From contig NZ_AOIO01000023.1 in NCBI RefSeq assembly GCF_000337555.1, forward strand, positions 14,963 through 78,962: 64,000 nt of DNA. The letters run 5' to 3'. The notes beneath the pieces are model-generated. The model searched no databases, was not told where the DNA came from, and saw only the letters and a list, made by a program, of their open reading frames with translations. Numbering within the stretch: position 1 is the first letter of the stretch; each line of letters opens with the position of its first letter. Positions 17,571-22,856 of the stretch are shown piece by piece. Source of the stretch: Natrialba asiatica DSM 12278 (lineage in GTDB: Archaea > Halobacteriota > Halobacteria > Halobacteriales > Natrialbaceae). Both the position numbers and the translations under genes were made by a program.

Positions 17571-17696
17571 ACCGTCACGCCGACCACCTCCGGACGGTCT
17601 GTCCGCTAACTGGTAATATATCGAACCCGAGAACTGGATTTTCGCCAGCCTCGGGGGTACGAGCGGCTAAGAGTTGAACGATTAGAAAATTTCGAG

Positions 17697-17767
17697 TGGG
17701 ACCGCCGAGAATTGAACTCGGGTCCTACGGACCCCATCCGCAGAGGATACCACTACCCCACGGTCCC
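17697..17767 (-). tRNA. tRNA-Pro (anticodon GGG)
   Basis: 71 nt without intron. The acceptor arm GGGACCG pairs with CGGTCCC followed by discriminator A at 17697. The anticodon stem TGCGG/CCGTA encloses the loop ATGGGGT, with anticodon GGG, and the T arm is CCGAG-TTCAATT-CTCGG. The D arm is of the short GGGTAGTGGTATCC type. CCA is not encoded. The 3' end faces the decayed methyltransferase/CxxC genes, a usual position for an integrated element. Confidence 0.93.
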
Positions 17768-17954: not shown

Positions 17955-18881
17955 TCAGACGAGTACTCGTTCTAGATCGACGACAACGCCCGATGTAGCC
18001 TCGGGGTCACCGACGAGTTCACCGAGACAGACGGCCGCACCGTTCGGCGTGTAGCAAGCAACGAGCGGTCGATCGGTCGACGGATCGTCGGGGGATACGT
18101 CGCTATCGAGGACGCCCGGCGCGTAGACCGGCGCACCGTTTGCGACCTCGCGGGCGGCGCTGTCTGCGATGGTAAGTCGTGGAATCCCCTCGAGAATTCG
18201 CTCCGCAGGGTCGACGACGGCCCGAAGCGGTTCGGGGTCGGCGTCCTCTATCCAGAACGCGAGCGCGTCGAGGAACTCGGTGGCCGTGTACAGGTCCGTG
18301 TCGTCGAACGGCGTCGTCGCAGTGCGGCGCAGATGGCCCATGTGCCCGCCGGTTCCGAGCGCGAGTCCGAGGTCGTGACAGAGTTTGCGGACGTACGTCC
18401 CACTTTCACAGCGAATCCGCAGGAGAAGTTGGCGACCGTCCCGTTCGAGCACATCGAGGTCGTAAATCTCGCGAACGCGAAGTCGGCGCGAGACGGCACT
18501 CTTTCGGGGAGGCTTCTGGTAAATCGGCCCTTCGAACGCAGCGAGAACCGATTTCGCGTCAGTCGGTATCGTCCCGTGGCACTCGAGGACGGCGACGTAT
18601 TCTTTCTCGCCCTCGAGAAAGACCTGCGCGAGGCGGGTCGCCTCCCCCAGCATCGTCGGGAGACAGCCCGTCACCTTAGGATCGAGCGTGCCGGCGTGAG
18701 CAGCCTGATCGATAGTTTCGCCGGTATCGCGTTCGGCAAGCGTCTCGGCGACGGCGTCGCGCAACCAGCCGCTGACCTGATGCGAGGACGGTCCCGGCGG
18801 CTTATCGAGGTTGACGACACCGAAGGTGAGCAGTTCTGCCGGCGAGCGATCGGCGGGTGGACCGCGAAGGCGTCGTGTCAT
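17955..18881 (-). CDS. truB: tRNA/rRNA pseudouridine synthase, Cbf5/TruB family
   Basis: Catalytic subunit of archaeal H/ACA ribonucleoproteins (Cbf5), also able to form pseudouridine 55 in tRNA. Of its 308 residues, the TruB catalytic domain covers ~15-210, with nucleophile D67 in AHAGTLDPKVTGCLP and KPPGPSSHQV at the start, and with the conserved RCESGTYVRKLCHDLG. A PUA domain (~225-305: RLTIADSAAREVANGAPVYAPGVL...) binds the RNA ACA end. It lies 2 bases after cmk on the same strand; the order adk, DUF106, cmk, cbf5 is conserved in haloarchaea. Confidence 0.95.
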   Translation of the reverse strand: MTRRLRGPPADRSPAELLTFGVVNLDKPPGPSSHQVSGWLRDAVAETLAERDTGETIDQAAHAGTLDPKVTGCLPTMLGEATRLAQVFLEGEKEYVAVLECHGTIPTDAKSVLAAFEGPIYQKPPRKSAVSRRLRVREIYDLDVLERDGRQLLLRIRCESGTYVRKLCHDLGLALGTGGHMGHLRRTATTPFDDTDLYTATEFLDALAFWIEDADPEPLRAVVDPAERILEGIPRLTIADSAAREVANGAPVYAPGVLDSDVSPDDPSTDRPLVACYTPNGAAVCLGELVGDPEATSGVVVDLERVLV

Positions 18882-18883
18882 CC

Positions 18884-19459
18884 CTAGAACTCGTCGTCGA
18901 GAGCGATCTGTGCCTGTCCCTCATCAGCCGTAGCATCGTACTCCTCGACAGCAGTCACGAGCATATCGAGCACGGAATCAGGGTCCCAACGCGCCGTATT
19001 GACCGAGAGGTCATAGATCGTCAAGTCCCGGATATCGATGCCGTAATATTCCTCGTACCGTTGTGCTTCGCTCGCCTCACGCGCCTGGGTCTCCTCCGTC
19101 GCCCGCTCGGGCGCTTTTTCCTCGCGCTCTGCAATCCGCTGTCCTCGAACGCGCGGGGGCGCATCGAGCCAGAACCGAAAGTCCGCCTGTTCGGCCGCAA
19201 GCCACCCCGCGAGCCGAGATTCGAGCACGAGATCGTCCTCATCTACCGCGATTTCCCGAAGTCGTCGGTCGAGATCGCGATCGATCTGGTCGTTCTCCTC
19301 GGCGAGTTTGTTGAACTCGAGAGGGGTGTACCCGCGTTCGTCCGCGAGTTGGCGGAAGATGTCGCCGCCGCTGACGTGTTCCAAGTCGAACGCGTCGGCG
19401 AGTAACGCTGCAGTTGTGCTCTTTCCGCTTCCTGGCGGACCAGAGACGGTGAGTAACAT
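18884..19459 (-). CDS. cmk: Cytidylate kinase, archaeal type
   Basis: Phosphorylates CMP/dCMP (and possibly UMP) with ATP in pyrimidine nucleotide supply. 191 residues. The P-loop GPPGSGKST is at residues 7-15, the substrate segment [16 protein letters not shown] follows at ~29-44, and the adenine lid contains [36 protein letters not shown], which is the archaeal CMP-kinase signature. It sits directly ahead of cbf5 (2-base gap) and downstream of the DUF106 gene. The tail beyond ~175 is acidic. Confidence 0.93.
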
Positions 19460-19538: not shown

Positions 19539-20492
19539 TCAGGTTCCCGATGGCGTCATATCGATGTTCAGCGACTTGCGAAGAAGTTGCTGGAAGCCGA
19601 CCGAGCACAGGAAGTACCAGACGATCCAGGCCTGCATCGGACCGGCGATAGACTCGGTCCACTGGACTTCTCCGGCGATCGGCATAACGACGGTCGCCTC
19701 GGTTCCGGTAAGCCCGACACCGTTGATCTTCCAGTGCATCCAGAGGAACAGCGGAATGGTCAACAGCATAATCCAGACCATCGGTCGGATCTGCTCTTTG
19801 AACATGCCCATGTTCTCCGCCATCGCTTCCATCTGCTCCTCGCGAACGTCTTCGAGTTCATCTTCGAGCCGTTCGATTTCGGCCTCGCTTGCACCGCGTT
19901 CTTCGGCTTCTTCCTTGCGTTCGCGAACGTCCTGTTGTTTGTCCTGCATCGCCTGCATTCGCTGTTGGTACTTGCTCATGATCTCGGGGTTCATCAGGTT
20001 CGCTTGCAACAGCGTCGAGTACAGGCCGGTTATCAGGGCAATAGAGAGGATGACGGCATAGAACGGTAACGCAGCATCGAGCGGGCCGAGCGCATTGTTA
20101 AGTGTACTGCCGACGACCTGCTTAATTGGGTCGAGCCAGTAGCCGAACATCAAAAGCAACGAGGCGGCTCCGGCTATTTTGTCCCATTGAGACCACTTGG
20201 ATGCCTCGGCGTCGATATCGACGTCTGTACTGACCCCGCTACTGGAACCATCACCGTCAAGTGCCTCATCGTAGGCGTCCCGGTCAGCGATCTCGAAGCC
20301 GTCGTCGCCATCGACCAGTATTCCTTTCTCGATCAGTCGTCCCCACTGTCCGCTCGTCAGCTCGTCGCTAACGTCGCCCCACTGGACCTCGCCGCCGTTT
20401 TCATCGGCTTCCTCGCGGATAGACTCGAGTGCCTCATTCATCGAGGAATCCTCGTGGACGAGGGAATTGATCTTCTCGACTGTCCGTGTCAT
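19539..20492 (-). CDS. DUF106/EMC3-like membrane insertase
   Basis: 317 residues of the archaeal DUF106 family, related to YidC/Oxa1/EMC3/TMCO1 insertases that place proteins with short translocated parts in the membrane, acting with the ribosome and SecY. Residues 1-~105 form a soluble, acidic haloarchaeal extension. Then come a first TM (~112-135), a second around [23 protein letters not shown] (~140-165), a long charged coiled coil ([27 protein letters not shown]... through about 225) and one or two further TMs from [17 protein letters not shown] to the C-terminus. It normally lies between adk and cmk; here adk is separated from it by an inserted gene on the other strand. Confidence 0.85.
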
Positions 20493-20703
20493 CTGGGTAT
20501 ACTAGGGCTAGGGCAGGTTCGGTATACAAGTGTTTATCTTCGGAAGCCAGCTACTCGCGTCGGTGGAAAACAACAGGAGTCGTCTCTATTCCAATATCCT
20601 CCTCCTTCGGACTTGTTATAATGAATTCAATGGGGGATATAAACTGAATTGAAGTATTTGATCAATCGATTGTATTATACTCACGTTCACGAGTTGAGTC
20701 CCC

Positions 20704-22215
20704 ATGAGCGTTCGACGAAGGGAGCGATCGGTGGGAGAAGCAAGCCGGGCACAATCGTCCCTGCTTGGAATCGTCCTCCTGATCGGGATGGTGGCGGCCG
20801 GTAGTATCGGTGTCTTGTTTGTCGCCGGCCAGGGAATCGGGCAGACGGAACAACAGTCCGAACAGGAACGAGTCGAGCAGGCGTTCGTCGAGTTGAGCCA
20901 AGAGATTTCGACGGCGACGACGAACAACGACGTTACTCACGGCTCCAATCTGGATGCCGGTGAACACGGAGCTATCGCCCATCACGACTCCGCAACGTAC
21001 GAAATCTGGGCGGAAAACAATAGCGGGACGACCACCCCGATTGCGAACGGAACGATCGGAACCATCGAATACGACGCCGATGACGGAACGCAAATCGCCT
21101 ACGAGGGCGGTGCTGTATTCCGTGAAACCGGCACGCAAACACGGGTACTGTCGACTCCACCGATCAACTACGACCATCGGACGCATACGCTCTCGTTTCC
21201 GGTCGTCGAACTAACCGAGAACAAGACGATCGACTCGGGCGATATCGCGATTGAACAGGCCAGTGCGCATGCTAATTCGATGAATTACATCAAAGACGAC
21301 CACGTATTCATCGAAATCGAGAGCGAATACTGTCTGGGATGGGAACAACACTTTACGAGCGAAGCAGGCGATACGGCGCTACAACAGGGCTGTTATGACG
21401 CTGCAAACGACGACGGAACGCTGAAGATCCGGCTTGGTTACGAAGACATCGATAACGCGTTCTCCAGAGGTGTCGCTCTCAGCGACGAATCCAACTACGA
21501 TTCCCACCAATCCGGCGGCGAATTCGATGATATCGGGAGCGAGCAGTTCAAACCGTTAGATGGCATCATCTCCGAGATGAAAGCCGATTTCAAAGAAAAC
21601 GAGTCACACATTGATACCGGCGACTGGTCCGAGATCACCGCTGGAAAGTACTTCGCTGCATCCGGATCGTTAGATGGTGCCGACGAACTCACCTTCTCGC
21701 TCGAAGACGGGAATGCGGTACTCGTAGTCGACGACGATATTTCCGGCTACGATATCACAGTCGACGCGTGTGGCCCCGATGGGGAGAATCAGGCAAAGAT
21801 CTACGCGACCGGCGATATAGACGTCGGTAACAACGAGTTCACCCAGACGTGTGGCGATGACGAATCGAATCTCCAACTCTACGGCACTTCGGAGACGGGA
21901 GTCGATTTCGGTAACGGCTACGTCGAAGGGCTGTTGTATGTCGCCAGCGACAAAACGCCCGGTGAGGACGGGTTCGGTGGCTGGCAAGTGAACTCGAACA
22001 ACGACGAGGAGTACCAGATCCACATGCAGGGGAGCCCGGAGTTCGACGGCTCGATTATTGCACACTCCATTTCCGAGCGAAGCAACTTCGATAACGTCAA
22101 CGAGCAGCCGATGAATAGTTCGGAAATCGAGGTGATCCCGCCCGGATACGAGCCGGCACCACAGCTCACCTACCTCAATATCGCCGAGTACGAAATCGAC
22201 GTCGAGAACAACTAA
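20704..22215 (+). CDS. Large pilin-like surface protein (DUF7289 type)
   Basis: 503 residues beginning with a basic leader and a class III-like signal helix: SRAQSSLLGIVLLIGMVAAGSIGVLFVAG, the RAQS(S/E)xLGxxLLxG pattern of haloarchaeal DUF7289 pilin-like proteins processed by PibD. The rest is acidic, beta-rich and exported. Residues ~330-460 (ADELTFSLEDGNAVLVVDDDISGYDI..., DVGNNEFTQTCGDDESNLQLYG) form a right-handed-helix-like stretch similar to DUF7305 regions. Three cysteines there could form disulfides outside the cell. It stands on the plus strand between adk and DUF106, which are adjacent in relatives, so it looks inserted. An adhesin or minor pilin role is inference. Confidence 0.72.
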   Translation: MSVRRRERSVGEASRAQSSLLGIVLLIGMVAAGSIGVLFVAGQGIGQTEQQSEQERVEQAFVELSQEISTATTNNDVTHGSNLDAGEHGAIAHHDSATYEIWAENNSGTTTPIANGTIGTIEYDADDGTQIAYEGGAVFRETGTQTRVLSTPPINYDHRTHTLSFPVVELTENKTIDSGDIAIEQASAHANSMNYIKDDHVFIEIESEYCLGWEQHFTSEAGDTALQQGCYDAANDDGTLKIRLGYEDIDNAFSRGVALSDESNYDSHQSGGEFDDIGSEQFKPLDGIISEMKADFKENESHIDTGDWSEITAGKYFAASGSLDGADELTFSLEDGNAVLVVDDDISGYDITVDACGPDGENQAKIYATGDIDVGNNEFTQTCGDDESNLQLYGTSETGVDFGNGYVEGLLYVASDKTPGEDGFGGWQVNSNNDEEYQIHMQGSPEFDGSIIAHSISERSNFDNVNEQPMNSSEIEVIPPGYEPAPQLTYLNIAEYEIDVENN

Positions 22216-22220
22216 CGACG

Positions 22221-22856
22221 TTAGGCCGCGTCCGAAATCGTCTCCTCGACGGACTCCCAAACCGCATCCGGTGCCTGATTCCCATCGATCCGCTCGAGCG
22301 TTCCCTTCTCGTCGTAGTACTCGACGACCGGTTCCGTATTCTCTTCGTATACCCGGAGTCGCTCGCGAACGGTCTCTTCCGTGTCGTCTTCTCGCTGCTC
22401 GAGTCGCGCTTCGACGTCCGCATCCTCCGGGGGATTGTACTCGACGTGGTAGATATCGCCCGTTTCCGGGTCCAGACGGCGACCAGTGAGTCGGTGTACG
22501 AGTTCTTCCTCGTCGACATCGAGATAGAGAACGACATCGAGATCGGTCATGTCCTCGAGCTCTTCGGCCTGGTCCAGATTGCGCGGGTAGCCGTCGAGAA
22601 CGAAGCCGTCCGCCTGTGAGAGCGCCTCGTCGACGATCGCGTTAACGACTTTATCGGGAACGAGTTCACCCTGATCCATGTACTCGCCAGGGGTGTCGTA
22701 CTCGGTGTCCATATCGGAGAGATCCATCCCCTTGTTGGCCCGAAGTGCATCGCCGGTGGTGATGTGATCGACGTCGAACTCGTCGACGATATTTGCACTT
22801 TGTGTCCCTTTGCCCGCCCCGGGTGCCCCGAGAATCAAAATTCGTGGCTGTACCAT
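22221..22856 (-). CDS. adk: Adenylate kinase
   Basis: ATP + AMP to 2 ADP. The 211 residues from the ATG at 22856 ([20 protein letters not shown]) contain the P-loop at residues 10-18, the AMP-binding region ([23 protein letters not shown]) and the lid ([47 protein letters not shown]) without zinc cysteines. This is the bacterial-type enzyme common in haloarchaea. Upstream frames to 22940 extend through non-conserved sequence and are rejected. The gene ends 5 bases from the stop of the convergent pilin-like gene. In other haloarchaea adk follows secY; here secY is 8 kb away, at the end of the ribosomal operon. Confidence 0.94.

Follow-up and report, generated by a model that had tools for sequence, protein, structure and literature searches.

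A pilin-like gene lies between EMC3 and adk in Natrialba asiatica

The window, as we call the whole stretch of 64,000 nucleotides analysed here, comes from the genome of Natrialba asiatica DSM 12278 (4.40 Mb in 49 contigs); among named relatives, Natrialba taiwanensis and N. aegyptia are the closest, with 94% identity in the protein described below. Its list of open reading frames includes one of 503 amino acids on the plus strand (20704..22215), situated between two minus-strand genes, namely, that for the EMC3/DUF106 membrane protein on the left (19539..20492) and adk, encoding adenylate kinase, on the right (22221..22853). The frame is convergent with adk, from whose end at 22221 its stop codon is separated by 5 bp, and a gap of 211 bp lies between it and the EMC3 start codon at 20492. 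On the far side of EMC3 are two more minus-strand genes, cmk for cytidylate kinase (18884..19459) and cbf5 for pseudouridine synthase (17955..18881); a tRNA-Pro(GGG) gene (17696-17767, minus strand) is found directly past the end of cbf5. Pfam assigns the neighbouring proteins to the ADK, EMC3_TMCO1 (PF01956), cytidylate kinase and TruB/Cbf5 families, EMC3_TMCO1 being presumably the DUF106 of a first-pass annotation of this DNA. That annotation had described a large DUF7289-type gene five bases from adk, among core genes that had not been flipped, and for the window the open reading frame, its Pfam matches, the 5 bp gap and the gene orientations agree with this description.

The same annotation had noted an A/T-rich gap with promoter signals, which our data corroborate. 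The G+C content of the gap is 0.436, versus 0.553 in the pilin-like gene, 0.568 in EMC3 and 0.588 in adk, and two conserved promoter-like blocks can be seen in it, one ahead of EMC3 (20520..20543, minus strand) and an A/T-rich one ahead of the pilin-like gene (20650..20679, plus strand), which is largely conserved in four Natrialba loci. The core of the EMC3 block is exact in 62 of 63 loci of the family, some of which are one genome fetched twice, with two mismatches in the remaining one, and it has at least three mismatches in all eight loci from other families. Since this core is kept across the family, including the three genomes in which the site is empty, the gene need not have separated EMC3 from its promoter, and disruption of an operon by the gene was rejected.

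The encoded protein has a predicted pilin-like anatomy

The 503-residue protein belongs to two Pfam families, both with a gathering cut-off of 27: DUF7289 (PF23960; 87.4 bits, residues 15-227), which covers the better conserved N-terminal part (20746..21384, plus strand), and DUF7305 (PF23981; 77.5 bits, residues 273-460). Among 38 aligned homologues DUF7289 is present in all and DUF7305 in 37. Neither Pfam entry states a function, and our literature search, confined largely to papers outside subscription journals, found no paper naming either family, nothing on gene order, and nothing relevant on pilins with an ice-binding beta-helix.

Prepilins of class III are recognized by a signal motif placed directly ahead of a hydrophobic stretch. 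A motif of this appearance, judged by eye from the sequence and alignments, is RAQS at residues 15-18 (20746..20757, plus strand), which is followed by SLLGIVLLIGMVAA; R15 is invariant in 24 sequences and kept in at least 90% of the 38 homologues. A model of the whole protein, built with 38 sequences (mean pLDDT 78.4, pTM 0.66), predicts a long N-terminal helix resembling pilin alpha1 at residues 19-73 (20758..20922, plus strand; pLDDT below 50 in residues 1-22 and 33-44), and then beta domains. Thus, the pilin-type plan of a long N-terminal alpha helix and a beta-sheet head is found at the level of the predicted model. The window protein has no match to Pilin_N (PF07790) with an E-value of 1 or less, and for this reason we class the protein as pilin-like only. 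Two of the 38 homologues match Pilin_N, at best with E 0.069, as do two longer relatives at the site, with E 0.0007 (below cut-off) and 7.3e-6 (over cut-off). Likeness to pilins in the structure search is weak (FimA, 3sok, Z 2.5), and the search with the whole-protein model gave no convincing fold for residues 79-247. With these qualifications, the Pfam matches and the predicted model favour the pilin-like surface protein of the first-pass annotation.

The C-terminal variable domain, residues 248-474 (21445..22125, plus strand), is predicted to be a beta-solenoid of the ice-binding type. In the whole-protein model this part matches 19 chains of ice-binding or antifreeze proteins, among which several are variants of the same protein, with Z 11.5-13.4 over 163-171 residues, the next match being pectate lyase at 5.6. 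When the domain is modelled alone (pLDDT 66.8), ice-binding proteins again come first (Z 10.2 to 8.1), followed by tapirin (7.3) and bactofilin (6.7); this lead is small, so that we are surer of a solenoid than of which kind it is. Foldseek found no match below E 0.17 for the predicted models, and the one solved relative by sequence is a DUF3992 protein at E 0.26. The domain, from a hypersaline host, thus resembles Type 1 ice-binding proteins (DUF3494, PF11999) in predicted fold, but the window protein has no Pfam Ice_binding match and its profile does not align significantly with those of true ice-binding domains (hhalign E 0.11-0.12); membership of the ice-binding family was therefore rejected. 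A Pfam 'Putative Ice-binding-like adhesive domain' is matched by one of the 38 homologues (E 0.0044). A predicted fold in common with ice-binding proteins does not in itself show function.

Compared with archaeal type IV pilins such as Haloferax PilA and Sulfolobus UpsA, the protein has in common a prepilin-like signal and an N-terminal helix followed by a beta head, but this head is much larger and includes the ice-binding-like solenoid, Pilin_N is unmatched, and the gene is linked to adk instead of to a pilus operon. Machinery that could process and assemble such a subunit is encoded elsewhere in the genome, namely, one prepilin peptidase match on contig C40 and four matches to T2SSE ATPases, one of which clusters with a small DUF7289 protein and a neighbour that is PilC-like (named by eye). 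The window gene itself lies outside any pilus-assembly cluster. Another contig of this genome, C11, encodes an 877-aa DUF7289-DUF7305-VWA protein (L073:6169-8802), an architecture that occupies the adk site in some relatives.

The absence of assembly genes nearby and the large size of the subunit would also be expected of a pseudopilin anchored in the membrane, or a protein of the cell envelope, that never becomes part of a pilus and whose role is structural, not adhesive. This possibility is a serious one, even if we find it doubtful, given the signal-like motif, the predicted long N-terminal helix, the secretion ATPases and prepilin peptidase of the genome, and the fact that it is the distal domain that varies most, as described in the next section.

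Close relatives can carry different versions of the gene

The gene and its flanks were compared in pairs hand-picked as close relatives, 13 of them aligned at the DNA level and 16 compared by identity, the pairs being overlapping and not independent. First, between the Natrinema hispanicum strains DSM 18328 and CDM_6 the pilin-like gene has 42% of its residues identical, versus 97% for adk, 99% for EMC3, 97% for cmk, 98% for cbf5 and 99% for coxB, with ORF22916 at 93%; in the DNA, the alignment breaks off 466 bp inside the gene and picks up again directly past its stop codon. Second, three of the 13 DNA alignments are continuous through the gene and ten are broken. In these ten, homology is back at 0 to +25 bp relative to the stop codon of adk; on the other side, seven break off upstream of EMC3, at 44-56 bp from its start, and three 466-790 bp inside the gene; patches of 65-70% identity occur within or before the first 670 bp of the gene in six of the seven pairs that break upstream of EMC3. 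Third, between Natrialba sp. SSL1 and N. hulunbeirensis the adk-side gene is 95% and the EMC3-side gene 33% identical, within flanking DNA at 91-92%. In the window's own clade, by comparison, the gene is 94% identical versus 98% for the flanks, and its allele looks vertically inherited.

Divergence is unevenly distributed, both among pairs and along the gene. Among the 15 pairs with a flank identity of 95% or more, the identity of the gene reaches 80% or more in ten, lies between 50 and 80% in none, and falls below 50% in five, which correspond to about two events. Over 528 pairs, mean identity is 59% for residues 15-60, 49% for residues 61-240, 35% for residues 241-460, the most divergent part, and 45% for residues 461-503. 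Between N. hispanicum DSM 18328 (L102) and N. limicola (L087), dS takes the values 0.29, 1.82 and 0.19 along the gene, which at the sequence level is the signature of a mosaic. These comparisons indicate that the version of the gene, above all of its presumably outward-facing half, varies even among strains of one species. The first-pass annotation had seen here a site of strain-specific variation, and so it appears, with the precision that what varies is which homologue is carried and not its presence or absence.

Tandem paralogues and differential loss can account for part of the pattern

Trees were constructed for the window, G071 and 32 of the 43 named loci that a search with the gene alignment had returned (31 when L117 is dropped); broken open reading frames (L097, L104, L108) and loci with unreachable flanks or a weaker or distant homologue (L103, L106, L113, L114, L115, L116, L118, L119) were left out. 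The flank tree recovers Natrialba, Natrinema and the group of N. hispanicum plus N. limicola with support of 99-100, and the gene data reject the same groups (p 1.7e-36, 5.9e-6 and 0.0013, respectively), in tests that used quick trees and groups chosen after an initial tree had been viewed.

Two types of tandem paralogue, adk-side and EMC3-side, are present, and in five loci (L080, L090, L093, L094, L039) two DUF7289-DUF7305 genes stand side by side. In an N-terminal tree (FastTree, without support values), EMC3-side genes tend to group with the genes that stand alone in the window clade, in CDM_6 and in the N. gari group. Since both types exist, differential loss can account for part of the conflict between gene and flank trees, which to that extent reflects hidden paralogy. 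Both the side-by-side genes and this grouping would also suit an explanation by loss only, in which an old tandem array left each species with a different ancestral paralogue and no exchange took place between lineages. We consider this unlikely as the whole account, if still worth weighing, because the mosaic dS inside a single gene (L102 and L087), as well as the N. hulunbeirensis case, in which the EMC3-side gene was changed and the adk-side gene kept, need either recombination or more paralogues.

Plain rapid divergence of a gene under weak constraint is less satisfactory. The gene is the most divergent one at the locus in the discordant pairs, and Natrinema gelatinilyticum and Haloterrigena sp. 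H1 (L097, L108) have it in split or truncated form, which, together with its absence from the site in one genus, marks it as dispensable. However, dN/dS over residues 1-460 is 0.03-0.26 in seven unswapped close pairs, well below 1, and the gene is better conserved than the neighbouring ORF22916 in seven of the 16 close pairs, so that the gene is under purifying selection and not simply fast-evolving. Identity is moreover bimodal where flanks are at least 95% identical, and homology ends and restarts sharply, so that we hold simple fast divergence to be improbable.

The site is old in the family

To place the locus in its phylogenetic context, we used the gene, EMC3 and adk as queries against 195 genomes of the order, and 120 of these genomes were counted in a census of the EMC3-adk gap, that is, those in which EMC3 and adk could be paired by eye among the matches listed; G041 was omitted, its matches being on two contigs, and in G135 and G190, with two EMC3 matches each, the one on the adk contig was taken. 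All 30 genomes of the window's family, Natrialbaceae, could be placed. DUF7289 genes are at the adk locus in 27 of these, representing 12 of the 13 sampled genera, and in the window's genus the gene is beside adk in all seven sampled genomes. In 20 of the 30, EMC3 and adk enclose a gene of the 503-aa type; such a gene adjoins adk, with EMC3 relocated, in G128; and it is about 5-6 kb from adk, past longer DUF7289 genes and again with EMC3 relocated, in G087, G134 and G169. A longer DUF7289 protein is the sole occupant in G094, G100 and G184, and the site is empty (88-166 bp) in the remaining three, all of one genus. In the four genomes with relocation (G128, G087, G134 and G169; loci L048, L049, L050 and L051), EMC3 is 135-249 kb from adk and the DUF7289 genes are on the adk side; cmk and cbf5 have moved together with EMC3 in G128.

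Among the 90 counted genomes of other families, the gap is at most 400 bp in 56, 401-1000 bp in 12, 1-20 kb in 20 and over 20 kb in one, and in one EMC3 and adk are oppositely oriented. Eight outgroup loci contained no homologue at the site (E up to 1e-4); the gap is closed in two of them, and other large open reading frames are visible in it in G102 and G078. The earlier picture of relatives with DUF106 immediately next to adk fits most genomes counted in other families, but only three of 30 in the window's own. The spread of the gene across the genera of the family indicates that occupancy of the site is old and its position beside adk probably ancestral in Natrialbaceae.

The named loci, picked by carrying the query gene, are a biased set that provides no measure of presence. 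In 35 of the 43 the gene is between EMC3 and adk (L117, a duplicate of L101, included); in three adk is present and EMC3 not countable, owing to a contig end in L104 and L106 and to limited reach in L113; L105 has EMC3 next to the gene, with adk beyond reach; and in four, two from Natronomonas, one from Halobacterium and one from Natrarchaeobius, neither flank is in the fetched stretch. L104, from N. hispanicum, duplicates L102 at the end of a contig (99.8%) and is not a second copy. The Natronorubrum bangense chromosome (NZ_CP031305.1, L101) and plasmid (NZ_CP031306.1, L117) have in common an identical 17.5-kb stretch with adk, the pilin-like gene, EMC3, cmk and cbf5, which is either a real duplication onto the plasmid or an assembly effect; L117 was left out of the pair counts.

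Relatives carry one to five homologous genes at the EMC3-adk site. An extreme case is the 14-kb interval of G174 (L040, 3740-17365), with five homologues of the query and two further minus-strand open reading frames (801 and 325 aa) beside adk. Of 16 longer site proteins tested with Pfam, six add a VWA domain and four have a bactofilin match over cut-off. Bacterial PilY1, a VWA-bearing pilus-tip protein, together with minor pilins, offers a comparison, since some sister proteins at the site unite a pilin-like N-terminus of the DUF7289 type with DUF7305 and VWA on a single polypeptide; the window protein, unlike PilY1, has no VWA.

Given the census, the accessory insertion proposed in the first-pass annotation is contradicted by the same-place genes of the 12 genera, the very outcome that the annotation had named as its refutation. 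A search for the direct repeats or att-like sequence that it had suggested at the gene edges returned, for region 20300-22500, ten repeat families of 12-28 nt, mostly imperfect, none of which frames the gene, and nothing convincing of either kind. No second gene, integrase-sized or other, is present between the window's EMC3 and adk, and none of 50,697 phage records matched the pilin-like gene. Plasmid matches come from eight records, all haloarchaeal, seven being homologues at 21-30% identity and the best, at 34%, being the N. bangense plasmid with its duplicate of the whole chromosomal cluster. Framing repeats, an integrase and sporadic presence in relatives, which would denote an integrated element, are thus not observed, and a mobile element or att site at the locus was rejected. 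Recent insertion by such an element, in spite of the sites closed in other families and in one genus of this one, is very improbable.

A probable fixed site of turnover for surface proteins

From the sequence comparisons, the locus gives the impression of a long-established, fixed position at which surface proteins change, and not of a recent insertion. The reading that we favour, as the probable one, is that of a large type IV pilin-like subunit which presents a variable adhesive or recognition domain and is encoded at a fixed site of turnover. The prepilin-type signal and long hydrophobic helix would anchor or polymerise the subunit, presumably by means of the separately encoded prepilin peptidase and PilB/PilC-type machinery, and the C-terminal, ice-binding-protein-like beta-solenoid would face outward, where it may contact surfaces, partner cells or viruses. 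The site, bounded by the EMC3 promoter block on one side and the stop codon of adk on the other, would have become fixed at an early stage of the family, and the one to several DUF7289 genes that occupy it would since have been turned over by tandem duplication, differential loss and homologous replacement in some mixture. The turnover itself can be read in the sequences; which mixture produced it, and for what selective reason, we can only infer. In this way the displayed domain would change and the anchor and the housekeeping flanks would stay.

There are partial precedents for such a system. The nearest tested one is Sulfolobus UpsA, a variable region of which sets species-specific aggregation and partner specificity (PMC7064770). 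The nearest genomic one is the VARTIG modules of Thermococcales, in which, like here, a large secreted protein has a variable C-terminal domain, attributed there to recombination among strains and species; VARTIG modules differ in Ig domains, gene content and restriction to Thermococcales, and the searches described there found no closely similar module in other archaea (PMC8416519). Pfam detects no Ig-family domain with an E-value of 1 or less in the window protein. The Haloferax S-layer glycoprotein is encoded by a haloarchaeal surface gene recombining within lineages, but it is of a different protein class and not a pilin (PMC5867893).

By analogy with UpsA, it is tempting to speculate that the EMC3-adk junction is a 'barcode' locus throughout Natrialbaceae, where the exchanged solenoid sets mating or aggregation partners or virus receptor type, though we would regard this as a long shot. 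A bolder variant still, by analogy with ice-binding proteins and ice, is that the flat face of the solenoid attaches to a crystal or another lattice-like surface, for example halite or the S-layer of a neighbour.

If the favoured reading is right, haloarchaea would have a defined and easily found chromosomal site at which a surface-recognition protein is turned over beside fixed housekeeping flanks, two unnamed Pfam families, DUF7289 and DUF7305, would gain a role, and the basis of partner and virus specificity in haloarchaea would become testable by the swap of one gene.
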